Origin: Bacteroidetes bacterium RIFCSPLOWO2_12_FULL_35_15
GTDB lineage: Bacteria > Bacteroidota > Bacteroidia > 2-12-FULL-35-15
Direction: 5' to 3'
Length of the DNA: 39,392 bases
NCBI GenBank assembly: GCA_001769385.1
Contig: MEPB01000035.1
Coordinates: 1-39,392, forward strand
Of this stretch, positions 10,989 to 38,793 are shown one piece after another. The position numbers were made by a program, and so were the translations under genes. Every line of letters begins with the position of its first letter. Position 1 is the stretch's first letter. The notes beneath the pieces are model-generated. The model had not been told where the DNA came from. It was given only the letters and a program-made list of their open reading frames with translations, and did no database searches.

Positions 10989-13900
10989 TTATTTCAAAAG
11001 CGTCAGATATCCTTTGTATTCATGATCGGTTCCATCAGAAGCTGTTACTTTTATAATATAATAATAAGTGCCGTCCTTTGCTTCTGCACCACTTTTTGCA
11101 CGACCATTCCAACCACCTGAAACATCATGCCATTCATACATTTTTAAACCCCACCGGTCATAAATTTCCGCATCAAATGTTGATACTCCTGTTGCAGTTA
11201 TTTTATAAATATCATTGGTGATATCTCCATTGGGGGTAAACACATTCGGAATTATTATAGAATAATTGTCATAAACAATTACAGTTGCACTCGTACTGTT
11301 TGTGCAGGAAGTGACATTATCCGATACTGTTAATACAACAGAGTAGATTCCCGTTGTATAGGTATTATTTGAAGGATTTGCAGATGATGAAGTACTCCCA
11401 TCACCAAAGGCCCATGAATATGAAGTTGCATTTTGACTTGTATTTGTAAAACTAACAACCAATGGACTTGCTCCAGTTGCAGGATTAGGTGAAGTTGTGA
11501 ATGAAGCGGTTGGATTAGAATTAACAAAAACAGAAGTTGTTCCCTGCAAACTTGTACAACCAGCCACAGTAACGGTAACAGAGTACGTTCCAGACATTGC
11601 AATTGTTGAATTTACGCTTACTGTTGGATCTTCAATTGATGAAGTAAATCCATTCGGACCCATCCAACTGTAAGTAGCTCCTGAAATTATATTGGAAGTT
11701 AAATTTAACTGTGCGCCTTCGCAAATGGGGCCATTGTTTCCGGCAACCGGTGTTGGCGGTAAAGGATTCACAATTATATTACCATTTGCAGTTGCCTGAC
11801 TGCAACCTCCGGTGGTGGTTACGGTATAGTTGTATGTTCCAGATGTTGTTGGTGTTCCGCTTATTGTAAAAACTCCCCCTGCATATGAGCCTGTCACCCC
11901 GGAAGGCAATCCTGTTACACCTGCTCCTGTTCCTCCTCCTGTTACTGAATAAGTAATGGGTGTGATCGCAGTATTGATGCACAAGGTTTGAGCATTGGTT
12001 CCTACGGCAGAGGTTATAGCAATGGCTGCATTCGTACTTACAATTATGCTTCCTATTGCGGTTGTTTGAGCACAAGTTCCTGTAGTGGTCACGGTATAGT
12101 TAAAGGTGCCTGTGGTGGTTGGTGTTCCGCTTATCGTATATACGCCAGCTGAATAAGAACCTGTTATACCATTCGGTAATCCGGTAATGCCTGCTCCTGT
12201 TCCACCTCCGGATACAGAATAGGTAATTAAAGTCATTGCTGTATTAACACACAAAGTCTGGGTATTGGTTCCAACAGCTGAGGTTAAAACAATGGCAGCA
12301 TTCGGAGTTACAATTATGCTTCCTGTTACTGTTGGTTGAATACATGTTCCGCTTGTAGTTATTGAATAATTAAATGTGCCGGTTGAGGCCGGGGTTCCGC
12401 TTATTGTAAATATTCCACCTGAATAAGAACCTGTTACACCTGTCGGTAATCCTGAAACACCTGCCCCTGTTCCACCACCTGTTACATTGTAGGTAATAGT
12501 CGTCAATGCTGTATTAGCACACAAGGATTGCGCATCTGTCCCCACTACTGAGCTTAAAGCGATGGATGCATCCGGAGTAACTAGTATATTTCCTGTTGCT
12601 GTAGCCGGGGTACAAGCGCCTGTTGTGATTACAGAATAGCTAAATGCTCCTGTTACAGTAGGAGTTCCACTAATTGTAAACACTCCCGCTGAGAAAGATC
12701 CTGTGACACCTGCCGGCAATCCTGTTATACCGGCTCCTGTTCCACCATTTGTTATTGAATAGGTAATTTGATTTAATGCTGTATTGATACATATAGTTTG
12801 AGCATTTGTTCCAGCTGCTGATGTTAATGTGATCACTGCACCTGGATTGACAGTTATACTCCCTGTTGCAGCTGCCTGAGTGCAAACTCCCGTTGTTGTT
12901 ATAGAATAATTAAACGTGCCTGTTGCGGTTGGTGCTCCATTTATTGTAAATACTCCTCCTGAAAATGAACCTGTTACCCCTGTCGGCAATCCTGTTATAA
13001 TTGCTCCTGTTCCACCAGCTGTTACAGAATAAGTAATAGGAGTGATTGCAGTATTAACACACAAAGTTTGTGAATCAGTTCCAACAACTGAGGTAAGAGC
13101 AATTATAGCATCCGGATCAATAATAATACTTCCCGTTGCTGTTGCAGGGGTACAAGCTCCAGTTGTGGTTACTGTATAGTTAAAAATGCCTGTTCCAGAG
13201 GGAGTTCCGCTAATTGTAAACAATCCTGCTGAAAAAGATCCTGTTACACCTGTCGGCAAGCCTGTTACACCTGCTCCTGTTCCACCATTTGTTATTGAAT
13301 AGGTAATTGAATTTAAAGCGGTATTGATACATACTGTTTGTGCATCTGTTCCCACTGCTGATGTTAAGGTGATCACAGCACCGGGATTAACTGTTATACT
13401 TCCGGTTGCTGTTACCTGAGTACAAACTCCGGTTGTAGTTACTGTATAATTAAATGTGCCCGCTACGGTTGGTGTTCCAGTGATCGTAAATACTCCTCCT
13501 GAAAAGGAACCTGTTACACCAGACGGCAATCCCGTTACACCGGCTCCTGTTCCACCAACTGTTACAGAATACGTAATGGGTGTGATAACAGTATTGCTGC
13601 ACAAGGTTTGAGCATTGGTTCCTACTGCTGATGTTAAGGCGATAACTGCATTATGATTTACAATTACACTTCCGGTTGCTGTTGTTTGCGCACAAGTTCC
13701 CGTTGTGGTTATTGTATAATTAAATGATATTGTTGGTGTTCCACTGATTGTAAATACACCTCCTGAAAAGGACCCTGAAATACCAACCGGTAACCCTGAT
13801 ATACTCGCTCCAGTGGCTCCTCCTGTCAATAAATAAGAGATCGGAGTGATGGCCGAACCGGCACAAATTGCTTGGGCGTTGGTTCCGACAGCAGACGTTA

Positions 13901-16151
13901 AAGTAATCAGTGCATCTGGATTAACTGTAATAGTTGTAGTTGCAATACAGGTTGACAGAGCCGTTGTGGCAGTAATTGTATAGGTATAAGTGCCAGAAGT
14001 AGCGGAAGCAAGAATTCCTGTTGGATTTTGTGTATTGGAAGTGTATCCAGATGGCCCAACCCAAGAATAACCAACTACATCAACAACATTGCTTGCTGTT
14101 AAACCAAAGGTTCCATTGGGACATACAGGGCCATTATTTGTTGCTGTAACGGTACAAGAACAATCATTAATTGTAACCAAAGCAGTATCCGTTACAACGC
14201 ATCCATTTGTATAGCTCACCGTATATGTTTCAGTGCTGAGTGGAGAAATTAGTATTGATTGTGTTGTAGCTCCACCCGGTGCCCACAAGTATGTTCCTCC
14301 TGCTAAAGAAGGTGTAGCCGTCAATGTAGTGGAATCTCCTAAACAGATAGTCACCGCATCAACTGTAACAGTTGGAGCAGAGTTAACAGTTACAGTAGTA
14401 GTTAAAGTGAAATAGCATGGCACTGTTCCCTGAGTTGTAATATCACACGTATAAGTAGTTGTACTTGCAGGACTAACCGTAATTGTAGAGGTAGTATCAC
14501 CACCCGGACTCCATAAATAAGCGGCAGATCCGGCAGGTGCAGAGAGGATTGCAGATGCTCCCTGACAAATTACAGCAGGACTAATGATACCATATGCAAA
14601 ACAGGAACAATCAATATAGGCATATCCATAATGAGCCCCCAATGAACAATCTGAAGTTGTGAACTTTACAGTTACCGTTTGCCCGATATAACTATTTAAG
14701 TTAACACTAACTGTAGTCCAGGGCTTATACCAAATATCAGAAGTGGGAGTTGTTTGAGTGTATCCGGTACCTGGAGCAGCATCTTCATATAATCCGCAGG
14801 AAACCGGGACTCCGTTTTGATCATACACATCCGCTTTAAAAAAGGGCTGCTCATAATCAGGATGGGCGCCATCTTGAAAAACTACGGCATAATTATAAGT
14901 AAAATTTGTATTTGTTGCAGTAACCTGAAAAGTTTGTTGAATTGATGCAGCATTATGAGTCTCGTAAGTTGCAGAATTACCCAACCGAATAGAGTTTGTT
15001 CCGCTGAAAACAAGGGGAAATCCTGCTATAGGATCTGTACCGGCAGTTACCAGGGTAAAATTTGTGCCTGCGGTTGTATTATAAACTGTAGGCTGATAAA
15101 CAGGTGTTGAAGCTCCTGCCAAACCACTAACCGAATTTCCGACTGTTCCATACCATCCTGTAAAACCACTTTCAAAGCCTAAATTGGTACATGGAAGTTC
15201 TATGGGTGGTGGTGGTGGTGCTGTAACACAAATTCCAAATGTTCCATTGTTATTATTACCGTATTCCCAAAATCTAACCCAAATAGTATCTCCCTGACTT
15301 AAACCTGTTGCTGTTATCATTGGCATCAAGCCATTAGGGCTCCCATCATCATTACAAGAAATTAAGGCAAGAGCTCCGCATGTACCTGAATAAATTGCCA
15401 TACCACCATCTGTTATTATACCGGTTTGTGTATCAAAGTTTAAAATTCCACCGGCAGGAACAATCACATTAAACCAAACATCCCCACCTGAATATGAGGC
15501 ACATCCCGGTGCAGGCACACCAGCAGATGGTGTTGCACCGGCATTTGTATAGGTTGTGTAGGCGCAGGATGCTGTTGGAGTTATTGTAATCGCATTACAA
15601 GGATCATCATTTGTTAAGGGAGGAGGAGGTAGAGGAGCTGTAACACATATCCCAAATGTCCCATTGTTATTGTTTCCATATTCCCAAACGCTGATCCAAA
15701 TTGTATCACCCGGAGTTAGAGTAGTTGTAGAAATCATTGGCATCAAACCATTTGGACTCGAATCATCGTCACAAGAAATTAAGGTAAGCGCTCCACATGT
15801 ACCTGAATAGATAGCCATACCACCATCTGTTAATACACCTGTTTGTGTATCAAAAACCAATAAACCTGTGGCAGGAACTGTTACCTGAAACCAGACATCC
15901 GCACCGGAATAAGAAGCACATCCCGGTGCAGGAACTCCTGATGAAAGAGTTGCAGCAGCATTTGTATATGTTGTGTAAATACAAGATGCTGTTGGAGTTA
16001 ATACTATCGCATTACAAGGGTCGTCATTGGCAGGCTGCGCAATTGATAGTCCTATAAAACAAAATATACTACTGATAGTTATTGCAATTTTTTTTGAAAA
16101 AAAATGAAGCAAAATTTGATTCGAATAATTTTTTAATAAATATGAATGCAT
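10989..16151 (-). CDS. Giant modular T9SS type-B surface protein (1720 aa)
   Basis: N-terminal hydrophobic export signal (IAITISSIFCFIGLSIAQ). Two near-identical ~135-residue PPC-like jelly-roll domains follow (about 41-175 and 182-317; NDDPCNAI..TPTASC.YTTYTNA, DGGMAIYSGTCGAL, EYGNNNNGTFGICV). After a proline linker comes a lectin/MAM-like jelly roll (~322-520; LGFESGFTGWYG), then Ig-like units. Eight repeats of about 90 residues follow (~745-1460; GTNAQTLC.NTAITPITYSV..GGTGAG..GLP.GVTGSFSGGVFTISGTP). Then an Ig unit, a PKD domain (YSWAFGDGS) and a type-B sorting domain at the C-terminus (IPNVFTPNGDITNDIY, AEIYDRWGLKMYEW, YKGYLTLLK). Known for the family: T9SS export and surface display. Adhesion is inferred. 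Confidence 0.9.
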   Translation of the reverse strand: MHSYLLKNYSNQILLHFFSKKIAITISSIFCFIGLSIAQPANDDPCNAIVLTPTASCIYTTYTNAAATLSSGVPAPGCASYSGADVWFQVTVPATGLLVFDTQTGVLTDGGMAIYSGTCGALTLISCDDDSSPNGLMPMISTTTLTPGDTIWISVWEYGNNNNGTFGICVTAPLPPPPLTNDDPCNAITITPTASCAYTTYTNAGATPSAGVPAPGCASYSGGDVWFNVIVPAGGILNFDTQTGIITDGGMAIYSGTCGALALISCNDDGSPNGLMPMITATGLSQGDTIWVRFWEYGNNNNGTFGICVTAPPPPPIELPCTNLGFESGFTGWYGTVGNSVSGLAGASTPVYQPTVYNTTAGTNFTLVTAGTDPIAGFPLVFSGTNSIRLGNSATYETHNAASIQQTFQVTATNTNFTYNYAVVFQDGAHPDYEQPFFKADVYDQNGVPVSCGLYEDAAPGTGYTQTTPTSDIWYKPWTTVSVNLNSYIGQTVTVKFTTSDCSLGAHYGYAYIDCSCFAYGIISPAVICQGASAILSAPAGSAAYLWSPGGDTTSTITVSPASTTTYTCDITTQGTVPCYFTLTTTVTVNSAPTVTVDAVTICLGDSTTLTATPSLAGGTYLWAPGGATTQSILISPLSTETYTVSYTNGCVVTDTALVTINDCSCTVTATNNGPVCPNGTFGLTASNVVDVVGYSWVGPSGYTSNTQNPTGILASATSGTYTYTITATTALSTCIATTTITVNPDALITLTSAVGTNAQAICAGSAITPISYLLTGGATGASISGLPVGISGSFSGGVFTISGTPTISFNYTITTTGTCAQTTATGSVIVNHNAVIALTSAVGTNAQTLCSNTVITPITYSVTVGGTGAGVTGLPSGVTGSFSGGVFTITGTPTVAGTFNYTVTTTGVCTQVTATGSITVNPGAVITLTSAVGTDAQTVCINTALNSITYSITNGGTGAGVTGLPTGVTGSFSAGLFTISGTPSGTGIFNYTVTTTGACTPATATGSIIIDPDAIIALTSVVGTDSQTLCVNTAITPITYSVTAGGTGAIITGLPTGVTGSFSGGVFTINGAPTATGTFNYSITTTGVCTQAAATGSITVNPGAVITLTSAAGTNAQTICINTALNQITYSITNGGTGAGITGLPAGVTGSFSAGVFTISGTPTVTGAFSYSVITTGACTPATATGNILVTPDASIALSSVVGTDAQSLCANTALTTITYNVTGGGTGAGVSGLPTGVTGSYSGGIFTISGTPASTGTFNYSITTSGTCIQPTVTGSIIVTPNAAIVLTSAVGTNTQTLCVNTAMTLITYSVSGGGTGAGITGLPNGITGSYSAGVYTISGTPTTTGTFNYTVTTTGTCAQTTAIGSIIVSTNAAIAITSAVGTNAQTLCINTAITPITYSVTGGGTGAGVTGLPSGVTGSYAGGVFTISGTPTTSGTYNYTVTTTGGCSQATANGNIIVNPLPPTPVAGNNGPICEGAQLNLTSNIISGATYSWMGPNGFTSSIEDPTVSVNSTIAMSGTYSVTVTVAGCTSLQGTTSVFVNSNPTASFTTSPNPATGASPLVVSFTNTSQNATSYSWAFGDGSTSSSANPSNNTYTTGIYSVVLTVSDNVTSCTNSTSATVIVYDNYSIIIPNVFTPNGDITNDIYKITATGVSTFDAEIYDRWGLKMYEWHDVSGGWNGRAKSGAEAKDGTYYYIIKVTASDGTDHEYKGYLTLLK
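11760..13920 (-). repeat. Eight ~270-bp protein-coding repeats in the 1720-aa gene
   Basis: Eight in-frame copies of a ~90-codon unit. There is a second-order period of about 540 bp: units 3 and 5 share INTALN.ITYSITNGG, while their neighbours use other versions of this segment. This suggests growth by duplication of two-unit blocks. The copies are diverged, unlike the exact 882-bp repeat at 1-1845. Confidence 0.8.
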
Positions 16152-17655: not shown

Positions 17656-19944
17656 TTGAAACAAAAACTAACATATCAATTGTATTTCCCTCTTGTATTT
17701 GTTGCAATTTTGATGAATAGCATGAAACTCCATGGGCAAAACAAAACTATCGATTCCCTGTTAACTATTCTTAAAACAACGAAGGAAGACAGCACAAAAG
17801 TAAACACCTTCCATACTCTTTTTTTACAATTTGAATTTGAAGATGATGAAAAAGCCAAGGAATATTTGAACAAAGCATTGGAGTTATCTCAAAAGATTGA
17901 TTATAAAAGAGGACTTGCAACTACCTATACCTATTTTGGTTTCTTGGAAGAAGATAAAGGAAATTATCAGCAAGCTGTTATTCACTATCAGGCATCATTA
18001 AAAATCTCTGAAAAAATTTCTGACAAAAAAGGCATTGCCTCTTCTTTCAATAATATTGGAGTTATTTATTATAATCTGGGTAATTATCCGGAGGCATTAA
18101 AAAATTACTTCGCTTCTTTGAAAATGGACGAAGAGATGGGCGATAAAAAAGGTATTGCGAGCTCTTACAATAATATTGGACTTGTTTATGAGCACCAAGG
18201 CAATTATCAGGCAGCACTTAAAAATTTCCTTGCTTCCTTGAAAATAAAAGAACAGTTAGGAAACAAAAGTGCCATTGCCACGGCATACAATAATATAGGA
18301 ATGAATTATGACGACCAAGGTAATTATTCCGAAGCATTAAAAAATTATACCACCTCCTTTAAAATAAGAGAATCAATAGGTGATAAAGATGGAATTGCTA
18401 ATTCATTAAACAATATTGGCGGTATTTTTTACTCACTCGGCAATTATTCGGATGCATTAAAAAATCACTTTGCTTCCTTGAAAATAGAAGAAGAATTAGG
18501 TAACAATGCTGGCATTATTCGTTCTTATATTAATATTGGAAATATTTATGCAATTCAAAAAAAACACAATGAATCAAGTAAATACCTGATAAAAGCTAAG
18601 GAATTGTCGAAAGAGATAGGGCAAAAAGAATTACTTCGAGATTCTTACAGTGAATTAACAAATTTAGATAGTGCAAAAGGAGATTTTAAAGAAGCTTTTA
18701 GAAATCACAAACTTTATATCCTGTACCGCGATAGTTTGGACAATGAAGAAACACGTGACAAAACGATACAGAGTCAAATGACCTATGATTTTGAAAAAAA
18801 AGAAGCCATTGCAACGGCAGAACACAGGAAAGAATTAGAAAATCAAGAAGCTTTAGCTGAAGAAAAAAGCAGAAAACAAAAACTTATTTTGCTCTTTGTA
18901 CTCGTTTCTTTAGCCCTGGTTGTGCTTTTCGCAGGTTTTATTTTCCGCTCATTACGTATTACGCGTAAACAAAAACATATCATTGAATTGCAAAAAAATC
19001 GTGTAGAGCAACAAAAGCAAGAAGTTGAACATCAAAAACACCTTGTAGAAGAACATCAAAAAGAAATTATTGATTCCATTACTTATGCAAAACGATTGCA
19101 ACAAGCCATCTTACCTTCTGATGAAGAAATAATAAAATACCTGCCCGATAGTTTTTTACTTTACCAGCCAAAAGATATTGTTGCCGGAGATTTTTATTGG
19201 ATGCATGTTGTTTCATTTGAAGATTTGAAAACAAGTAAACCTGCACCGCAGGCAGAGGTTAATGAAAAAAAAGAAAATAATGCAGTGCCTCAAATTATTT
19301 TCATTGCAGCCGCTGACAGTACAGGACATGGTGTACCAGGTGCAATGGTAAGTGTGGTTTGTAGTAATGCGCTCAACAGAGCAGTTAATGAATTTAATTT
19401 ATTTGATACCGGAAAAATACTAGACAAAACCCGTGAGTTAGTTTTAGAAACATTTGCGAAGAGTGGTGAAGAAATAAAAGATGGAATGGATATTTCCCTT
19501 TTAAGTTTAAAGTTTGAAGCTGAAAGTTCAAAGCTGATTGCCATACAATGGAGCGGAGCAAATAATCCTTTGTGGTACACGCAACAAATCCACTCTTTGA
19601 ATGAGTACACTTTTGAAAGTGCGAAGCAGGAGGAGGTTATTTTTCATGAAATAAAACCCGATAAACAATCCATCGGACAAACAGAAAATCCTCAATCCTT
19701 TACATCACATAACATCGAATTAAAAGCCGGAACAACGTTTTATTTAATGACCGATGGTTATGCTGATCAGTTTGGCGGCTCGAAAGGGAAAAAATATAAA
19801 TACAAGCAATTGCAAGAAAAATTGATTGCCACTTCTAATTTACCGCTTGCAGAACAAAAAGAAAAACTTGCGATCTCTTTTGATGAATGGAAAGGGAATT
19901 TGGAACAGGTTGATGATGTTACAATTATTGGAATTAAAATTTAA
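17656..19944 (+). CDS. Periplasmic-TPR / membrane / SpoIIE-type PP2C phosphatase, paralogue 1
   Basis: 762 aa. A TTG start is chosen because it supplies a full signal peptide (KQKLTYQLYFPLVFVAIL..LHGQ); the first ATG at 17713 would destroy it. Residues ~30-345 hold about seven TPR-like repeats of ~40 residues (NNIG.IY...GNY.EALKNY.ASLKI.E). A membrane segment follows near residues 410-435 (LILLFVLVSLALVVLFAGFIF), then a coiled coil (ELQKNRVEQQKQEVEHQK) and the SpoIIE/PP2C domain: QPKDIVAGDFYW, AADSTGHGVPGAMVS, LMTDGYADQFGG, EQVDDVTIIG. These carry the metal-binding Asp/Gly of the family. Predicted topology: sensor outside, phosphatase in the cytoplasm, dephosphorylating Ser/Thr of a partner protein. 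The paralogue follows after 15 bases, so the two form an operon. Confidence 0.9.
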   Translation: MKQKLTYQLYFPLVFVAILMNSMKLHGQNKTIDSLLTILKTTKEDSTKVNTFHTLFLQFEFEDDEKAKEYLNKALELSQKIDYKRGLATTYTYFGFLEEDKGNYQQAVIHYQASLKISEKISDKKGIASSFNNIGVIYYNLGNYPEALKNYFASLKMDEEMGDKKGIASSYNNIGLVYEHQGNYQAALKNFLASLKIKEQLGNKSAIATAYNNIGMNYDDQGNYSEALKNYTTSFKIRESIGDKDGIANSLNNIGGIFYSLGNYSDALKNHFASLKIEEELGNNAGIIRSYINIGNIYAIQKKHNESSKYLIKAKELSKEIGQKELLRDSYSELTNLDSAKGDFKEAFRNHKLYILYRDSLDNEETRDKTIQSQMTYDFEKKEAIATAEHRKELENQEALAEEKSRKQKLILLFVLVSLALVVLFAGFIFRSLRITRKQKHIIELQKNRVEQQKQEVEHQKHLVEEHQKEIIDSITYAKRLQQAILPSDEEIIKYLPDSFLLYQPKDIVAGDFYWMHVVSFEDLKTSKPAPQAEVNEKKENNAVPQIIFIAAADSTGHGVPGAMVSVVCSNALNRAVNEFNLFDTGKILDKTRELVLETFAKSGEEIKDGMDISLLSLKFEAESSKLIAIQWSGANNPLWYTQQIHSLNEYTFESAKQEEVIFHEIKPDKQSIGQTENPQSFTSHNIELKAGTTFYLMTDGYADQFGGSKGKKYKYKQLQEKLIATSNLPLAEQKEKLAISFDEWKGNLEQVDDVTIIGIKI

Positions 19945-22083
19945 TTGTAAATTAGGTTTATGAAGAAACGATTCCTTCCTGTTATTTTTTATTATTTATT
20001 CTTCCTTTTTCATTCGCTTTGCTTTTCCCAAAATGCTGAGATTGACTCTCTTCTTCATTTTCTTAAACGTGCACCAGAAGACAGCACAAAAGTAAACACC
20101 TTCCATACTCTTTTTTTACAATTTGAATTTGAAGATGATGAAAAGGCAAAAGAGTATTTGAAAAAAGCATTGGAGTTATCACAAAAAATTGATTATAAAA
20201 AAGGACTTGCTACCACTTATACCTATCTTGGTTTTTTTGCTGAGGACAAAGGCGATAACCGTCAAGCTGTTATTCATTATCAAACCTCTTTAAAAATTTC
20301 AGAAAAAATAGGCGATAAAAAAGGTGTTGCCTCTTCATACAACAATATCGGGGCAATTTACTACGCACAAGGCAATTATCCGGAAGCATTAAAATTTTAT
20401 TTTGCTGCGTTAAAAATCAGAGAAGCTATAAATGATAAAATTGGCATCGCTGCTTCATATAATAACATTGGAGTTTTTTACGCTGATCAAAACAATGTTT
20501 CGGAAGCATTAAAAAATCACTATGCATCATTGAAAATTGAAAAAGAAATTAATGATAAATATGGTATCGCAGCTTCTTACAATAATATTGGAATCATATA
20601 TAAACAACAAGGAAATTATCAGGAGGCTTTAAACAATTATTTTGCATCTTTAAAAATAAAAAAATTAATTGGTGACAAAACAGGCATGGCTGCGTCATAT
20701 AATAACATTGGCAATATTTATACAATACTTGGAAATTATTCAGATGCATTAAAAAACCAAATAGCTTCTTTAAAAATTGAAGAAGAAATAGGGGACAAAG
20801 AAGGAATTGCTTTGTCTTATAGTAATATTGGTGACCTTTACTCCAAACAAAAAAGATACAAAGAAGCAGAAGAATATCTTATCAAGTCAAAAAAATTAGC
20901 ATTAGAAATCGGTCATAAAGAATGTTTAAGGTTTGTTTACAACACATTAGCTGATTTGGATAGTGCAAAAGGGGACTTCAAAAGAGCATATAAAAATTAC
21001 AAGCAATCTATTTTTTATCGCGATAGTTTAAACAATGAAGAAACACGTGGCAAAACATTGCAGAGTCAAATGACCTATGATTTTGAAAAAAAAGAAGCCA
21101 TTGCAACGGCAGAACACAAGAAAGAATTAGAAAATCAAGAAGCATTAGCTGAAGAAAAAAGCAGAAAACAAAAAATTGTTTTACTTTTTGTACTCGTTTC
21201 TTTGGTCCTGGTTGTGCTTTTCGCAGGTTTTATTTTCCGTTCATTACGTGTTACACGTAAACAAAAACATATCATCGAATTGCAAAAAAATCGTGTAGAG
21301 CAACAAAAGCAAGAAGTTGAATATCAAAAACACCTTGTAGAAGCACATCAAAAAGAAATTATTGATTCCATTACTTATGCAAAACGATTGCAACAAGCCA
21401 TCTTACCTTCGGATGAAGAAATAATAAAATACCTGCCCGATAGTTTTTTACTTTACCAGCCAAAAGATATTGTTGCCGGGGATTTTTATTGGATGCATGT
21501 TGTTCCATTTGAAGATTTGAAAACGAGTAACCCTGCACTGCAGGCAGAGGTTAATGAAAAAAAAGAAAATAATGCAGTGCCTCAAATTATTTTTATTGCA
21601 GCCGCTGACAGTACAGGACATGGTGTACCGGGTGCAATGGTAAGTGTGGTTTGTAGTAATGCGCTCAACAGAGCAGTTAATGAATTTAATTTATTTGATA
21701 CCGGAAAAATATTAGACAAAACTCGTGAGTTAGTTTTAGAAACATTTGCGAAAAGTGGTGAAGAAATAAAAGATGGAATGGATATTTCCCTTTTAAGTTT
21801 AAAGTTTGAAGCTGAAAGTTCAAAGCTGATTGCCCTACAATGGAGCGGAGCAAATAATCCTTTGTGGTACACGCAGCAAATCCGCTCTTTGAATGAAAAT
21901 ACTTTTGAAAGCGCGAAGCAGGAGGAAGTTATTTTTCATGAAATAAAACCCGACAAACAATCTATTGGACAAACAGAAAACCCTCAATCCTTTACTTCCC
22001 ATAACATCGAATTAAAAGCCGGAACAACCTTTTATTTAATGACCGATGGTTATGCTGATCAGTTTGGCGGATCCAAAGGAAAG
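18739..22083 (+). repeat. Near-identical 3' blocks of the tandem phosphatase genes
   Basis: About 1.05 kb at 18739-19787 and at about 21029-22083 are almost identical at the DNA level, with only scattered substitutions such as tttcatttg/ttccatttg. The TPR-coding stretches before them and the last ~150 bases after them are clearly diverged. A second short identical block is at about 17790-17855 versus 20080-20145. This is the pattern left by gene conversion after tandem duplication. Confidence 0.85.
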
Positions 22084-22236
22084 AAGTTTATGCATAAACA
22101 ATTGGAGCAACTATTGAAAGAAAATAATTATCACAACTTATTAAACCAAAAAGAAATTTTAAGTGAAAACTTCGAAAACTGGAAAGGAAATTTAGAACAA
22201 GTGGATGATGTTACAATTATCGGAATACGAGTTTGA
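19960..22236 (+). CDS. Periplasmic-TPR / membrane / SpoIIE-type PP2C phosphatase, paralogue 2
   Basis: 758 aa with the same plan as its upstream neighbour: signal peptide (FLPVIFYYLFFLFHSLCFSQ), TPR-like repeats (~60-345), membrane segment (IVLLFVLVSLVLVVLFAGFIF), coiled coil, and SpoIIE/PP2C domain with GDFYW, DSTGHGVPGA, LMTDGYADQFGG and EQVDDVTIIG. ATG start at 19960, 15 bases after the previous stop. Its identity to paralogue 1 is mosaic. The block after the signal peptide (DSTKVNTFHTLFLQFEFEDD) and the membrane-to-phosphatase part are almost identical. The central TPRs and last ~50 residues differ. The same catalytic output is therefore probably linked to a different sensed ligand or partner. 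Enzyme class is well supported; pathway unknown. Confidence 0.9.
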   Translation: MKKRFLPVIFYYLFFLFHSLCFSQNAEIDSLLHFLKRAPEDSTKVNTFHTLFLQFEFEDDEKAKEYLKKALELSQKIDYKKGLATTYTYLGFFAEDKGDNRQAVIHYQTSLKISEKIGDKKGVASSYNNIGAIYYAQGNYPEALKFYFAALKIREAINDKIGIAASYNNIGVFYADQNNVSEALKNHYASLKIEKEINDKYGIAASYNNIGIIYKQQGNYQEALNNYFASLKIKKLIGDKTGMAASYNNIGNIYTILGNYSDALKNQIASLKIEEEIGDKEGIALSYSNIGDLYSKQKRYKEAEEYLIKSKKLALEIGHKECLRFVYNTLADLDSAKGDFKRAYKNYKQSIFYRDSLNNEETRGKTLQSQMTYDFEKKEAIATAEHKKELENQEALAEEKSRKQKIVLLFVLVSLVLVVLFAGFIFRSLRVTRKQKHIIELQKNRVEQQKQEVEYQKHLVEAHQKEIIDSITYAKRLQQAILPSDEEIIKYLPDSFLLYQPKDIVAGDFYWMHVVPFEDLKTSNPALQAEVNEKKENNAVPQIIFIAAADSTGHGVPGAMVSVVCSNALNRAVNEFNLFDTGKILDKTRELVLETFAKSGEEIKDGMDISLLSLKFEAESSKLIALQWSGANNPLWYTQQIRSLNENTFESAKQEEVIFHEIKPDKQSIGQTENPQSFTSHNIELKAGTTFYLMTDGYADQFGGSKGKKFMHKQLEQLLKENNYHNLLNQKEILSENFENWKGNLEQVDDVTIIGIRV

Positions 22237-30197: not shown

Positions 30198-32015
30198 ATG
30201 ACTGAAGTGCTTGAAATGAGAGAAATAGCAAACGAGATCAATGAGAATATTTCAATTGAAAAAATTGACCAACTCAATCAAAATGCCTGGGACATAAGAC
30301 GTTCAAACCTAGTTACATCATGGAAATTTGCCAATAATACCGAACAAATTTCTATCATAAAATCGTATGATAAAGGATTAGCTGAGAGTTTACGAACGCT
30401 TGCATATTGCTTATGGCATTTCGGGGAATATCCATTATCCCTGGAAAAATCAATGTTTGCAGTTAAATTATTTCGTCTCTTAAAAGATAAAAAAGGAGAA
30501 GCCGATGCATTAAATATTATTGGCGCTGTTCTTTTTATGTACCAGGGAGATAATGAAAGCAGATTAAAATATAATCAGTTGTGTTTGCAACTACGCATTG
30601 ATAGCAATGATACAGAAGGCATTGCCGGTTCTGAAAATCACATTGGCGAAACATATATGGATATGGGAGATTTTGTGGAGGCGGATAAATGGTTTACCAG
30701 ATGTTTAAACAATCCCGGTGCCATTGGTCAATTTCGAGCCCTGGCACATCATAATAAGGGAATACTTTTTTTTCGAAAAAAACAATATAAAGAAGCAATT
30801 ACCTCCTTTTATAAAAGTTTACATCTAACGGATGCTTTGAATTATGATCTGTTATCTGTTTCCACTCATTTGAATATTGCAAAAGTATTGATTGAATCGG
30901 ATGTGTTTCTGGATGAAGTAGATTTTCATTTGAATATTGCATTGGAAATGTCATACAGAAAAGGATTAAAAGAAGATCTTCATAAAATATTTTTAGCCTA
31001 TTCTGAACTGGAAGAAAAACAAGGAGATATTTCAAAAGCATTCAAATGGTTCAAAAAGCATAACCATGCACATAATGAATTGTTTAATGAAGTGAATAAC
31101 CGAAAAATAAATAATATTCAAACACAATTTGAAATTGAAGTCCTTAGGAGAGAAGCAGAATTTGAACGAATAAAACATTTAGAATTAGAGAAACTGATTG
31201 AGCAGATCAATATTCAAAAAAATGAAATTTCCCGAAAAAACAGTGAGATAACAGATAGCATTAAATATGCAAGCCGCATCCAACATGCTGTACTAACCAC
31301 CTTCAACTACATCAGAAAAAATTCACCTGTTGATTTTTTTATTTTTTATCAACCAAAAGATATTGTAAGTGGTGATTTTTATTGGGCAACACGAAAAGAT
31401 GATAAATTTTATGTTGCCGTTTGTGATTCCACAGGGCATGGTGTTCCGGGAGCATTTATGAGTTTGTTGAATGTTTCTTATTTGCATGAAGCAATTAATG
31501 AAAAAAACAAAGTGGAACCAAATCTTATTTTGGATTATGTACGAAAACGATTGATACAAAACTTATCACATGAAGAACAGCAAGATGGGATGGATGGTGT
31601 TCTGCTTTGTATTGATTATTCGAAAAAGAAAATCACTTACGCAGCATCTTATAATGCTCCAATAATAATAAGGAATAACAAAATAATTAAACTGGAAGCG
31701 GATAAAATGCCGATCGGTAACGGAATAAAAACTGACCCTTTTAAATGTTATGATCTGGAATATGTAAAAGGTGATATGATTTATTTGTTTACCGATGGCT
31801 TTGCCGACCAGTTTGGAGGAACAAAGGGTAAAAAATTAATGAATAAAAATTTATATACATTGATGGCTGAAACTGCAAAAATGCCGATTGATCAGCAATC
31901 GCAAAAATTCAAAAAGATCTTCGAAGATTGGCAAGGAATGCTTGAACAAGTGGATGATGTAACTATTGTCGGGTTTAAGATAGATTTAAAAAATAGTTTG
32001 ACGAAGAATTCATAA
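30198..32015 (+). CDS. Cytoplasmic TPR / SpoIIE-type PP2C phosphatase (605 aa)
   Basis: No signal peptide or membrane segment, unlike the two tandem relatives at 17,656-22,236. Residues ~60-285 are TPR-like (LRTLAYCLWHFGEYPLSLEK, NIIGAVLFMYQGD, ENHIGETYMDMGDFVEADKW, HNKGILFFRKKQYKEAITSF). A coiled coil lies at about 290-350 and the SpoIIE/PP2C domain at about 365-595: QPKDIVSGDFYWA, VCDSTGHGVPGAFMS, DGMDGVLLCID, LFTDGFADQFGGTKGKK, EQVDDVTIVGFK. The catalytic Asp and Gly positions are retained. Role: Ser/Thr phosphatase, probably acting on a partner-switch protein. Its 3' end faces, 34 bases away, a convergent small gene for a SpoIIAA/STAS-like protein, a candidate substrate (inference). Confidence 0.88.
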   Translation: MTEVLEMREIANEINENISIEKIDQLNQNAWDIRRSNLVTSWKFANNTEQISIIKSYDKGLAESLRTLAYCLWHFGEYPLSLEKSMFAVKLFRLLKDKKGEADALNIIGAVLFMYQGDNESRLKYNQLCLQLRIDSNDTEGIAGSENHIGETYMDMGDFVEADKWFTRCLNNPGAIGQFRALAHHNKGILFFRKKQYKEAITSFYKSLHLTDALNYDLLSVSTHLNIAKVLIESDVFLDEVDFHLNIALEMSYRKGLKEDLHKIFLAYSELEEKQGDISKAFKWFKKHNHAHNELFNEVNNRKINNIQTQFEIEVLRREAEFERIKHLELEKLIEQINIQKNEISRKNSEITDSIKYASRIQHAVLTTFNYIRKNSPVDFFIFYQPKDIVSGDFYWATRKDDKFYVAVCDSTGHGVPGAFMSLLNVSYLHEAINEKNKVEPNLILDYVRKRLIQNLSHEEQQDGMDGVLLCIDYSKKKITYAASYNAPIIIRNNKIIKLEADKMPIGNGIKTDPFKCYDLEYVKGDMIYLFTDGFADQFGGTKGKKLMNKNLYTLMAETAKMPIDQQSQKFKKIFEDWQGMLEQVDDVTIVGFKIDLKNSLTKNS

Positions 32016-32049: not shown

Positions 32050-32457
32050 CTATTTTTGATGTGGTGCAATGGCTTTGATCCAATTCAAAGAATCGTTGAA
32101 ATTATTAAAAATCTTAAAAGGAACCTGCGGAGTAACTTTTCTTTCATAGGACTTGCCCATCATGTTATGTTGTATGCCTGTTGTGTACATGGCGGTTGCC
32201 AAAGCAATTTCATCTTCGTAATTTGTTTCGCTGACATATCTCCACGTTTCTATATCAAAATTCATCGAAACCGGTGCTTCTACTATAAAATAACACTTTC
32301 CGAATTTTTCAACATAAACTCTCGTTACTGATAACATTTCAAGAAAATCCTTTTTAGAAACATAATTTTCTTCGTGGTATTTCCAGAACAATATGTTTCG
32401 TTCAACAACAATTATCTCAGCTGCATCATTACTTAATAAAGTAGTGTTTGAATTCAT
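32050..32457 (-). CDS. Small SpoIIAA/STAS-like protein (135 aa), uncertain
   Basis: The N-terminal strand-strand pattern (EIIVVERNILFWKYHEENYVSKKD), a helix, then the core strand CYFIVEAPVSMNF, a helix, a strand IALATAMYT, and the ending VPFKIFNNFNDSLNWIKAI match the order of secondary structure in SpoIIAA-like STAS proteins, whose end typically reads like P.K.F...EAL.WL. No strict DSSG phosphoserine motif is present; Ser64 in APVSM is the nearest candidate by position. Members of this Bacteroidota group are poorly studied. It is convergent with the cytoplasmic phosphatase gene. Function is inferred from fold pattern and neighbours only. ATG start at 32457. Confidence 0.6.
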   Translation of the reverse strand: MNSNTTLLSNDAAEIIVVERNILFWKYHEENYVSKKDFLEMLSVTRVYVEKFGKCYFIVEAPVSMNFDIETWRYVSETNYEDEIALATAMYTTGIQHNMMGKSYERKVTPQVPFKIFNNFNDSLNWIKAIAPHQK

Positions 32458-37648: not shown

Positions 37649-38452
37649 ATGAACATAAAACTGTCACAAGAGCAAATTGGTCAAAGGATAGCCAAACTTC
37701 GTAAAATGAAGGGGTTGTCTCAGGAAGATTTAGCAAAAAGTGTCAAAATATCCCGACCGTCTTTGGCTCAGATAGAGCTTGGAAACAGAAGTGTTGATGT
37801 TCTTGAATTTCAAAGATTATCAATGGTCTTAGGTTTTTCCTTAGATGATTTTATGTCTAGAGATTTTTCTGTCAGTCAAGATACTGAAGGTAAAGCCGAA
37901 TCAAAAATAAAAAAAGCAGATGAACGTATTTCTGTTCCAACCCTGAAGGTCAGCAAGTTTAAAAATGTATTACTCTATATTTTAGAACGATGTGCAGGTA
38001 AACCAAATGTTGGAGAAACAGTTCTTTACAAACTGCTGTATTTTTCCGACTTCAACTATTACGAATTGTATGAAGAGCATTTAACTGGTGCCAAATATCG
38101 TAAGTTACCTTACGGACCTGTTCCACAAAAATTAGATACTATTATCGGTCAAATGATGGAAAGCGGACAGATAAAAAGAATAAAAACAGAATATTTTGGC
38201 AAAATACAAACTCGTTACATTCCGCTTACGAAAGCAGATTTAAAAGAATTGAGAGCAAGTGAAAAAGAAGTCATTGACAAAGTTATTGAACAACTGTCTG
38301 ACTGGTCGGCTGCCGCAATAAGCAATTATTCTCATAAGGATATGCCTTGGGTAGCTTCCAAAGAAGGGGAAGAAATAAATTATGAATTAGCTTTTTATAG
38401 AGATGCTCCCTTCTCTGTAAGAAATTACGGGGACGAAATCGAGGAACAATGA
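37649..38452 (+). CDS. XRE-HTH / Panacea (DUF4065, SocA-like) antitoxin
   Basis: 267 aa. Residues ~8-70 are an XRE/Cro-CI helix-turn-helix (RIAKLRKMKGLSQEDLAK, ISRPSLAQIELGNRSV). Residues ~105-250 are the Panacea/DUF4065 domain: GKPNVGETVLYKLLYFSDF, GAKYRKLPYGPVP, TKADLKEL and SNYSHKDMPW are its typical landmarks. The Panacea domain is known as an antitoxin domain that neutralises many unrelated toxins, often joined to a DNA-binding domain as here. The toxin gene overlaps the stop by 4 bases (ATGA), so translation is coupled, and a palindromic operator covers the promoter. Cytoplasmic. The N-terminal start at 37649 fits the promoter and the HTH. Confidence 0.9.
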   Translation: MNIKLSQEQIGQRIAKLRKMKGLSQEDLAKSVKISRPSLAQIELGNRSVDVLEFQRLSMVLGFSLDDFMSRDFSVSQDTEGKAESKIKKADERISVPTLKVSKFKNVLLYILERCAGKPNVGETVLYKLLYFSDFNYYELYEEHLTGAKYRKLPYGPVPQKLDTIIGQMMESGQIKRIKTEYFGKIQTRYIPLTKADLKELRASEKEVIDKVIEQLSDWSAAAISNYSHKDMPWVASKEGEEINYELAFYRDAPFSVRNYGDEIEEQ

Positions 38453-38793
38453 TTTTTGATGAACTGATTGAATTTAAAAAGGATTTGAAAAACCTTTTAA
38501 AAAAATACCGAACGCTAAACGATGATTTGGAAGTAGTAAAACAAGTATTAACAGCTGCTCCAAATGAAAGACCACCGTTTAGTTTTCGTATTGATAATTT
38601 AGGTTTGGAAACGTGTGTTATCAAAGTAAAAAAGATTGCTTGTAAAGCATTAAAAGGTCGTGGTGTAAATTCAGGTTTACGATTAATTTATGCCCACTTT
38701 CAAGAAGAAAATAAAATAATCCTTATTGAACTCTACCATAAGAATGATAAAGAGAATGAGGATAAACAAAGAATTTTAATCAATTTCAAATAA
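38449..38793 (+). CDS. RelE/ParE-like toxin partner of the Panacea antitoxin
   Basis: 114 aa, overlapping the antitoxin by 4 bases. The helical N-terminus (FDELIEFKKDLKNLLKKYRTL) is followed by strands in the RelE/ParE order: VIKVKKIACKALKG, SGLRLIYAHFQEENKIILIELYHK, then KENEDKQRI. This order and the (R)LIYA.F.EE..I.LIE.YHK segment resemble RelE-superfamily toxins. RelE relatives cut mRNA in the ribosome; ParE relatives poison gyrase; which applies here cannot be told. Small size, gene order and overlap support a toxin role. It is followed within 10 bases by the DUF2188 remnant. Confidence 0.75.
   Translation: MIFDELIEFKKDLKNLLKKYRTLNDDLEVVKQVLTAAPNERPPFSFRIDNLGLETCVIKVKKIACKALKGRGVNSGLRLIYAHFQEENKIILIELYHKNDKENEDKQRILINFK

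Follow-up and report, generated by a model that had tools for sequence, protein, structure and literature searches.

The window analysed here, the whole 39,392-nucleotide stretch of Bacteroidetes bacterium RIFCSPLOWO2_12_FULL_35_15, contains two tandem TPR-SpoIIE genes, A and B, with B downstream of A across a gap of 15 bp. A third gene of this type lies outside the mosaic described below. The genes and their parts, each with its basis, are as follows.

17656..19944, + strand: gene A, 762 aa, TTG start (ORF analysis)
19960..22236, + strand: gene B, tandem paralogue of A, 758 aa, ATG start (ORF analysis)
17743..18732, + strand: TPR sensor of A, aa 30–359 (AF2 helices)
20035..21024, + strand: TPR sensor of B, aa 26–355 (aligned to A)
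18877..18951, + strand: membrane helix of A, approximately aa 408–432 (hydropathy and sequence)
21169..21243, + strand: membrane helix of B, approximately aa 404–428 (hydropathy)
18970..19110, + strand: coiled coil and hinge EIIDSITYAKRLQQAIL of A, aa 439–485 (AF2 helix 439–485)
21262..21402, + strand: coiled coil and hinge of B, aa 435–481 (aligned to A)
19150..19938, + strand: PP2C/SpoIIE fold of A, aa 499–761 (sequence and fold match to SiaA-PP2C, 6k4e)
21442..22230, + strand: PP2C/SpoIIE fold of B, aa 495–757 (Pfam; alignment to A)
30198..32015, + strand: third TPR-SpoIIE gene of the window (Pfam)

Gene A encodes an N-terminal signal-like stretch, a TPR solenoid, a membrane helix, a coiled coil and a SpoIIE/PP2C phosphatase. 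Pfam detects TPR_12 (1.4e-46 in A, 4.7e-47 in B) and SpoIIE (45.2 and 43.7 bits, respectively, with a cut-off of 25); both proteins are thus assigned to the SpoIIE/PP2C family (PF07228), and phosphatase activity is predicted. The AF2 model of A has block pLDDT values of 78–97 over residues 31–360 and contains a helix from 364 to 426, and basic residues lie at the C-terminal side of the membrane helix. The sequence-only reading had proposed an all-in-one plan of periplasmic TPR sensor, single membrane helix, coiled coil and SpoIIE domain. The order of parts, with one internal membrane helix, agrees with this plan, and we infer that the TPR part faces the periplasm.

We compared A and B by sliding NG86 windows of 40 codons, using the codon numbers of A. 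Silent divergence is high in the sensor, where dS is 0.61–1.25 in windows starting at codons 41–81 and at least 0.94, often saturated, in those starting at codons 101–341. It drops to 0.04–0.26 in windows spanning codons 361–660, climbs to 0.36–0.79 in windows starting at codons 641–681, and reaches 1.28–1.54 from codon 701 onward (the final 2-codon window aside). In a piecewise fit of silent identity, five segments performed best, lowering the BIC from 646.8 to 559.1.

A codons 2–36: silent identity 0.08
A codons 39–65: silent identity 1.00
A codons 66–361 (sensor): silent identity 0.56
A codons 363–707 (membrane helix, coiled coil, phosphatase): silent identity 0.92
A codons 708–760 (tail): silent identity 0.52

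A two-state HMM, whose blocks were unchanged across the three switching rates tried, recovers near-identical blocks at codons 44–87 (94% nucleotide identity) and 372–707 (96%), with 42, 69 and 62% identity in the remaining stretches. The resulting tracts and tails are these.

17785..17916, + strand: first near-identical tract in A, codons 44–87 (two-state HMM)
20077..20208, + strand: first near-identical tract in B, codons 40–83 (two-state HMM)
18769..19776, + strand: second near-identical tract in A, codons 372–707 (HMM; silent-site z)
21061..22068, + strand: second near-identical tract in B, codons 368–703 (HMM; silent sites)
19777..19944, + strand: diverged C-terminal tail of A, codons 708–762 (piecewise fit, HMM, silent-site z)
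22069..22236, + strand: diverged C-terminal tail of B (piecewise fit, HMM, silent-site z)

The first tract, a post-signal block of ∼44 codons, has a 68-bp exact run at its core. The second tract spans the membrane helix, the coiled coil and most of the PP2C domain; it is not identical between the genes, because 44 nucleotides differ in 1035. Its 3′ part (643–707) is more diverged than the remainder (0.82 versus 0.94), although splitting the block at 643 did not improve the BIC. Uninterrupted identity extends over at most 42 codons (P = 0.0009, 20,000 shuffles), and identity switches 160 times along the pair, compared to a shuffle mean of 212 and a shuffle minimum of 178. Thus, sliding dS, piecewise fit and HMM all bear out the earlier observation that the output half and a short post-signal block are nearly identical in DNA while the sensors and the tail differ. 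Uniform divergence, which had been named as evidence to the contrary, is excluded by the silent sites.

To set these values in context, we computed silent identity for the remaining paralogue pairs among the 53 family ORFs of the genome, some of which have truncated N-termini because the family loci carry flanks of 1.5 kb. Relative to this background, A and B stand out in the core (z = 7.2) and hardly or not at all in the sensor (z = 1.1) or tail (z = −0.1). Silent identity in the sensors (56%) and the last 55 codons (52%) is no higher than in other paralogues, and outside the first tract the sensors lie close to the background. For the core, other pairs average 0.51 (sd 0.06, maximum 0.83, 1276 pairs). 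A general silent constraint on the core is ruled out, since these other pairs are saturated there. A sharp local fall in silent divergence is the hallmark of a gene-converted paralogue pair, and it is what we see here.

Pieces are shared elsewhere in the family. Blastn between paralogues omitted A and B, presumably because the match extended below the identity cut, and we used codon-window scans instead. When the family ORFs of this genome were compared in 1409 pairs (some ORFs with truncated N-termini, and after removal of the top pair, a single gene sitting in two overlapping loci), only A/B, C77/C84 and C22/C40 attained 97% identity or more in any 40-codon window; the next pair reaches 85%. 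C77 and C84 have the output in common, whereas C22 and C40 share the sensor and differ in output. Among 361 pairs in other genomes, tandem pairs from CAISYK (97.5% in a C-terminal window), JAKAOA (100% over membrane helix and coiled coil, up to the contig end) and JAHEYB (92.5%) rank highest, with the next pairs close behind at 89 and 88%; in one relative, the tandem pair has mainly the C-terminal end in common. Shared segments have their edges close to conserved motifs, namely YRDS.DNEETRKKTIQ where the sensor meets the membrane part, SITYAKR.Q between coiled coil and phosphatase, and TDGYADQFGG close to the gene end. Conversion is therefore not peculiar to the output module. The proposal that conversion keeps the output the same describes A/B and C77/C84 and is too narrow for C22/C40; what stands is segmental recombination in the output half of A and B, as gene conversion or an equivalent process, which the silent sites support well. 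Residues 521–545 and 646–661 were considered as insertions of A and B alone and rejected: 5 other rows out of 70 fill each region, making these stretches weak markers.

The pair itself was sought in relatives. A and B are absent just upstream of the syntenic M16-TPR block in all 10 fetched regions, one of which (L215) held only 2.7 kb of upstream sequence, and no orthologous pair was found in the relatives examined; family matches below 25% identity were dropped. In one region (L217), a homologue with 40% identity lies about 11 kb upstream of the block. A quick tree search on the sensor (codons 101–361, 40 rows) places A and B as sisters (SH-aLRT 96), and with a similarity of 0.63 each is the other's nearest relative, followed by 0.60. 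The C-terminal tree has too few columns to discriminate, with the tree constrained to join A and B scoring 7.6 log units above the free search (AU p = 0.63), and gives no support for separate origins of the two tails. No donor or recipient can be read from the tracts.

With the sensors as sisters, old duplication followed by later conversion is the simplest history. Under it, A and B would be tandem paralogues within a large TPR-SpoIIE family of an uncultured Bacteroidota lineage. After duplication of an ancestral gene, the copies would have diverged until silent sites saturated; homologous recombination, as gene conversion in at least two tracts, would then have re-homogenised codons 44–87 and 372–707, the other sensor regions and the tails retaining the old divergence. 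Paralogues of this family may habitually exchange pieces in this way, with edges near conserved motifs. We assign a probability of roughly 0.7 to this history taken together with its functional half, namely that the sensors respond to signals and that a SiaC- or STAS-like target is dephosphorylated.

Three other origins can be weighed against it. A recent whole-gene tandem duplication, after which sensor and tail of one copy were replaced from other paralogues, would make the common core young by descent rather than by conversion. The low silent divergence of the core would follow directly, C22/C40 shows that parts are exchangeable, and the tail of A has closer matches than the tail of B in 25 of 69 sequences. 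Nevertheless, we consider this unlikely: the two sensors are mutually nearest and sisters, the tract at codons 44–87 requires another event, and the tail tree leaves A and B unseparated. A collapsed or chimaeric assembly is much less probable still. It is true that the window is an entire contig of a 110-contig assembly, and that two other contigs of this genome break off within genes sharing such a core (C84 in the middle of the phosphatase, C77 close to the gene end), but 44 differences in the second block and open frames throughout speak for two real copies, and comparable tandem mosaics occur in other assemblies. The least credible origin is a single old duplication of uniform age, with purifying selection on the output, fast-changing sensors and no recombination. 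Output domains are indeed better conserved than TPR sensors family-wide (28-row alignment). This account is contradicted by silent sites that differ as sharply as the amino acids, by saturation of the same core in other paralogue pairs, and by the lower BIC of the five-segment fit.

The predicted phosphatase is SiaA-like. The domain of A matches SiaA-PP2C (6k4e) in sequence (6.1e-19), by profile (2.2e-42) and in fold (Z 29.1, rmsd 2.4 over 244 residues), the fold hits being dominated by TPR structures and hence saying nothing about families missing from them. SiaA-PP2C is the only PDB sequence below E 0.1 with the phosphatase profile. The acidic metal-site positions D512, D609, D612, D700, D753 and D754 show little or no variation in the 28-row alignment, which includes one row without the domain; D700 and D704 align to SiaA D600 and D604. 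The hinge EIIDSITYAKRLQQAIL is the same in A and B, and only 6 amino acids differ within residues 486–713 of A. By approximate mapping, A and B show no differences in the segments assigned to switch loop, flap and loop residues 701–713, the docking-loop stretches agreeing through residue 713. Changes begin at residue 714; two positions earlier is the counterpart of SiaA F612, a residue in a loop modelled to dock SiaC (accessible text of PMC7647112). Of the last 49 residues (714–762), 23 differ.

That A and B combine the same switch with different targets, the tail being kept apart for specificity, is possible though doubtful: the changes in the tail start next to the putative docking position, while the mapped loops are identical and residues 486–713 nearly so. 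Judging from the sequences, A and B would most likely respond to different ligands yet share some or all of their targets, because they have in common the switch helix and those parts of the docking loop that could be mapped. It is accordingly plausible that, as had been suggested, two signals feed one target. In the favoured scheme, a periplasmic ligand would bind the TPR superhelix, the signal would pass through the membrane helix, coiled coil and switch helix would in turn set the PP2C dimer, and a SiaC- or STAS-like regulator would be dephosphorylated by the enzyme. Coiled-coil control with exchangeable sensors has been proposed for this phosphatase class in the available portion of PMC12143880. 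A more speculative idea, to which we give little credence, is that the TPR-SpoIIE family forms a combinatorial receptor system whose parts are swapped both by recombination and by protein assembly. Were this true, the shared coiled coil could join sensor-only relatives that end just past the hinge to phosphatases, either full-length or stand-alone, several envelope signals could converge on one enzyme, and conversion of hinge and output in A and B would preserve the capacity for mixed dimers.

A membrane-anchored PP2C signalling phosphatase is already known in SiaA of Pseudomonas aeruginosa (SiaABCD module; PDB 6K4E), which, like A and B, has a membrane part and PP2C domain in one chain. SiaA spans the membrane twice and contains a HAMP domain (PMC7647112, in part), whereas A and B have a TPR sensor and one internal helix, with no Pfam match to HAMP at E 0.001; also unlike the SiaA case, their contig lacks a SiaC gene. 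SpoIIE and RsbU of Bacillus subtilis share the SpoIIE Pfam domain with A and B, and the linker-dimer model, as given in the portion of PMC12143880 consulted, likewise places a helical linker or coiled coil ahead of the PP2C domain, although the phosphatase profile of A and B misses these proteins in the PDB below E 0.1. A figure legend in a 2025 survey lists TPR among the domains on bacterial PP2C phosphatases; neither the membrane TPR-SpoIIE plan nor mosaic evolution is described in its accessible sections (PMC12088040). Among the literature matches listed, we found no open-licence study of TPR-SpoIIE proteins of Bacteroidetes. The TPR superhelix of A resembles those of Rap and NprR in overall fold (Z about 25–30), and peptide complexes of these proteins are named in the structure titles of the matches. 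Rap and NprR are cytoplasmic peptide receptors and, unlike A and B, have neither membrane helix nor PP2C domain; fold likeness is no proof of a common ligand. For two-component sensor families, duplication and domain shuffling are seen as generating diversity, with shuffling regarded as rare and domain loss followed by gain suspected (PMC4603909, partial text). By comparison, the shared segments of A and B are young enough for their edges to be visible, which makes the pair an example of sensor diversification, old sensors on recently shared output, that can be read from silent sites.

Candidate targets were sought among neighbouring genes. STAS, the substrate type of the SpoIIE/RsbU phosphatases, was rejected as the usual neighbour, as none of 5 STAS matches in this genome lies within 3 kb of a SpoIIE domain. 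For DUF7793 the count is 2 of 12, one such protein (32050–32457) adjoining the third SpoIIE gene of the window; as a substrate it was set aside, since its AF2 model, from a two-row alignment, is useless (mean pLDDT 39.6). SiaC (PF09345) has no match on the contig of the window and hence none beside A and B, and 6 of 78 named homologue loci carry a SiaC gene. The number of SpoIIE domains per genome ranges from 1 to 67 across 36 genomes of this genus; genome size and completeness both confound its correlation with SiaC number (Spearman 0.63), which was discarded. We counted 14 SiaC matches in this genome, including one with internal stop codons (C70:96194–96541), after dropping 1 of 15 as a fragment overlapping another. 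The 11 SiaC-adjacent phosphatases rank 17–48 of 52 in similarity to A. SpoIIE genes are present in 10 of the 11 SiaC clusters, a linkage that narrows the question of what these phosphatases act on and yields a short, testable list of candidate targets.

Genes A and B lie on the same strand, 15 bp apart; residue and codon numbers below are those of A.

17656-19944, + strand, gene A, 762 aa, TTG start
19960-22236, + strand, gene B, 758 aa

Pfam assigns TPR repeats plus a SpoIIE/PP2C domain to each; each also has a single internal membrane helix (hydropathy) and a signal-like N-terminal stretch, which passed the hydropathy threshold of 1.6 in B and missed it in A. An AlphaFold2 model of A (alignment of 28 sequences, mean pLDDT 81.3) contains a TPR solenoid at residues 30-359 (block pLDDT 78-97), an extended helix at 364-426 covering the greater part of the membrane segment, a second helix at 439-485 read as a probable coiled coil, and a PP2C fold (499-761), although the low pTM (0.50) means that the relative placement of these parts is not reliable. 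The signal, the one membrane helix and the basic residues behind it suggest that the TPR domain is periplasmic. The parts of the all-in-one sensor-phosphatase plan proposed by the sequence-only reading are present, its periplasmic side being likely. The architecture is known in kind, and agrees with a proposal in an eLife 2025 paper (PMC12143880) that coiled-coil linkers connect exchangeable sensors with PPM phosphatase dimers and carry the signal between them.

The same reading had described the two genes as mosaic in identity, and silent sites bear this out. In sliding windows, dS between A and B is low across codons 361-660, climbing towards codon 700, intermediate around codons 41-120, and high or saturated elsewhere. 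The best piecewise model of silent identity has five segments (BIC 559.1, versus 646.8 for one).

Silent identity of A and B by segment (codons of A)
2-36: 0.08
39-65: 1.00
66-361: 0.56
363-707: 0.92
708-760: 0.52

A two-state HMM returned near-identical tracts at 44-87 and 372-707, unchanged over three switching rates. The decisive control is the within-genome background, for which we computed silent identity in pairs drawn from 53 family ORFs of the same genome, requiring at least 30 shared residues per region (713 pairs for the sensor, or TPR part; 1276 for the core, codons 363-707; 92 for the tail, the last ~55 codons). Mean values for these paralogues are 0.48, 0.51 and 0.52, respectively, compared to 0.56 (z = 1.1), 0.92 (z = 7.2) and 0.52 (z = -0.1) for A and B. 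Sensors and tails are thus at the level of ordinary paralogues, and the core is young. The 60 nt upstream of A and of B are no more alike than expected by chance (score -7.0, against a mean of -9.2 for shuffled sequence).

The most parsimonious history has one gene duplicate in tandem long ago, with two tracts converted later. A possible alternative is that A and B duplicated recently and had their ends replaced afterwards. The sensors (codons 101-361) are mutually closest by a small margin (0.63, versus 0.60 for the next sequence), and A and B are sisters in a quick-search tree of this region (40 rows, SH-aLRT 96). In the tail (55 residues), A has 25 neighbours nearer than B among 69 sequences; the tail tree nevertheless leaves A and B unseparated, a tree holding them together being 7.6 log units better than the free-search tree (AU p = 0.63). 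We also retrieved the surroundings of the M16 protease gene, which here lies downstream, from 10 of the 12 genomes of the genus with a full-length match of at least 58%. The M16 gene and the following TPR gene adjoin each other in all 10, and neither A nor B lies directly upstream in any (upstream sequence: 2.7 kb for L215, 9-14 kb for each of the remaining nine); one region (L217) has a 40%-identical homologue ~11 kb upstream. Among 40 relatives, the best-scoring homologue outside this genome is 62% identical. As far as sampled, then, the pair is specific to this lineage at this locus, and these relatives, having no orthologous pair, give no date for it. Gene conversion between A and B, as originally proposed, remains the most likely explanation.

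That conversion keeps the output the same while sensors diversify describes only some cases. The genome has 52 SpoIIE domains, and among 1409 pairs of family ORFs (excluding one pair that was a single gene counted in two loci that overlap) three contain a 40-codon window of at least 97% identity: A/B, C77/C84 and C22/C40, named by contig; the next pair reaches 85%. From the membrane part through the coiled coil to the phosphatase, C77 and C84 match at 81-97% of nucleotides (25-codon windows), against 53-76% in the sensors. C22/C40 (L012:121-2088 and L143:1371-3374) show the reverse of A/B, being alike in the sensor (77-97%) and unlike in the output (40-56%). Contig C84 stops mid-phosphatase and C77 a few residues short of the gene end, the assembly perhaps having been interrupted by common repeats; if so, mosaic pairs are undercounted. 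Elsewhere, three tandem pairs top a list of 361 within-genome pairs from 73 genome labels, which are incomplete samples, some labels possibly denoting one genome. The JAKAOA010000026.1 pair is 100% identical in the membrane and coiled-coil part, after which the contig ends. The CAISYK010000272.1 pair (L139:1615-5962) has a C-terminal window at 97.5%, the last ~65 residues being almost identical by eye, and phosphatase cores that differ (windows of 41-68%). The JAHEYB010000047.1 pair, at 92.5% in the coiled-coil end, is not sharply set off from the next pairs (89%, 88%, 88%). Recombination thus seemingly moves pieces in several combinations, with a uniform output one outcome among several. In the closely inspected pairs, the edges of shared pieces lie, by eye, near conserved motifs.

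Motifs near the edges of shared pieces
YRDS.DNEETRKKTIQ, sensor end
SI.YA.R.Q, hinge (coiled coil/phosphatase junction)
TDGYADQFGG

With the phosphatase profile, no PDB entry other than SiaA-PP2C of P. aeruginosa (6k4e; 2.2e-42) falls below E 0.1, and the modelled fold of A matches it, with Z 29.1 and an rmsd of 2.4 over 244 residues. According to PMC7647112, SiaA dephosphorylates SiaC at T68, and the SiaA loop between alpha5 and alpha6 (G611, F612) is modelled inside a SiaC pocket. In the profile alignment, the counterparts of G611 and F612 in A are residues 711 and 712. A and B differ at 6 residues in 486-713 and at 23 in 714-762, and so diverge two residues past the F612 counterpart. For SpoIIE/RsbU, a JBC 2024 paper (PMC11418112) assigns docking to the switch loop, the flap and the alpha3/4 loop; the putative counterparts (604-610, 667-684, 701-713), mapped approximately via predicted secondary structure, are identical in A and B. 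We put the probability that the two act on the same or an overlapping target at about 0.65.

A SiaC-like target is a more tentative proposition. The genome has 15 SiaC-family (PF09345) matches, of which 14 were counted (an overlapping fragment was left out; one of the 14 has internal stops). Thirteen of these, or 10 of 11 clusters, lie within 3 kb of SpoIIE genes, a zone covering 5.8% of the genome; none of five STAS matches lies within that distance. Such clustering is seen on contigs C38, C70, C24, C16, C22, C92, C40 and C19. In the C40 cluster (L143:22-6307), SpoIIE genes are interspersed with SiaC and DUF6272 genes, including one protein with two SiaC stretches; the cluster looks like a kinase/SiaC/phosphatase set, DUF6272 presumably being a SiaB-like kinase. 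Against SiaC as the target of A and B, a PF09345 profile search found no SiaC gene on the window's contig, SiaC matches lie within 3 kb of just 11 of the 52 SpoIIE domains, these 11 rank 17 to 48 of 52 by similarity to A, and a home-made profile found SiaC genes in 6 of 78 named homologue loci (with at most 6 kb of flanking sequence).

Some close relatives of these sensors elsewhere have no phosphatase and end ~29 residues past the hinge. Such ORFs number 34, come from 15 of the 78 named loci and stand in arrays, the longest with six members (L077); the arrays of L087 and L092 are followed directly by a SpoIIE gene that stands alone (236-237 aa).

L077:1440-10457, L081:1294-8971 and L087:76-5960, sensor-only TPR-membrane-coiled-coil arrays, hinge SI.YARRIQ
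L087:5968-6678 and L092:7493-8200, stand-alone SpoIIE phosphatase genes after arrays

The stand-alone type is present in 10 of 36 genomes of the genus (at least 72% identity, open frame of 239-252 aa). Its upstream neighbour is a sensor-only gene whose end lies no more than 10 bp away in three (one being L087 itself), a full-length SpoIIE gene at 35-57 bp in three and another gene in two; in the last two, no ORF of 150 codons ends nearby. Given the directly adjoining sensor-only genes, it is a reasonable hypothesis that several sensors feed one phosphatase at some loci. In the window's own genome none of 21 matches ends at the hinge; on C110 (L151:893-2959), a TPR-membrane ORF stopped just before a separate SpoIIE ORF (238 aa) is a split or decaying gene.

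This Bacteroidota TPR-SpoIIE family is also represented by one gene in a record titled Candidatus Saccharibacteria (L076, CAJCJB010000252.1), possibly a misbinned contig. In the window, a third TPR-SpoIIE gene (30198-32015) stands tail to tail with a DUF7793 gene (32050-32457, - strand), one of 12 DUF7793 matches in the genome. A protein of 1720 aa (10989-16151, - strand) contains many near-repeated stretches of ~80 residues, by eye. At 37649-38793 (+ strand), an HTH and Panacea (SocA-like antitoxin) gene is followed by a short overlapping ORF, a possible toxin-antitoxin pair.
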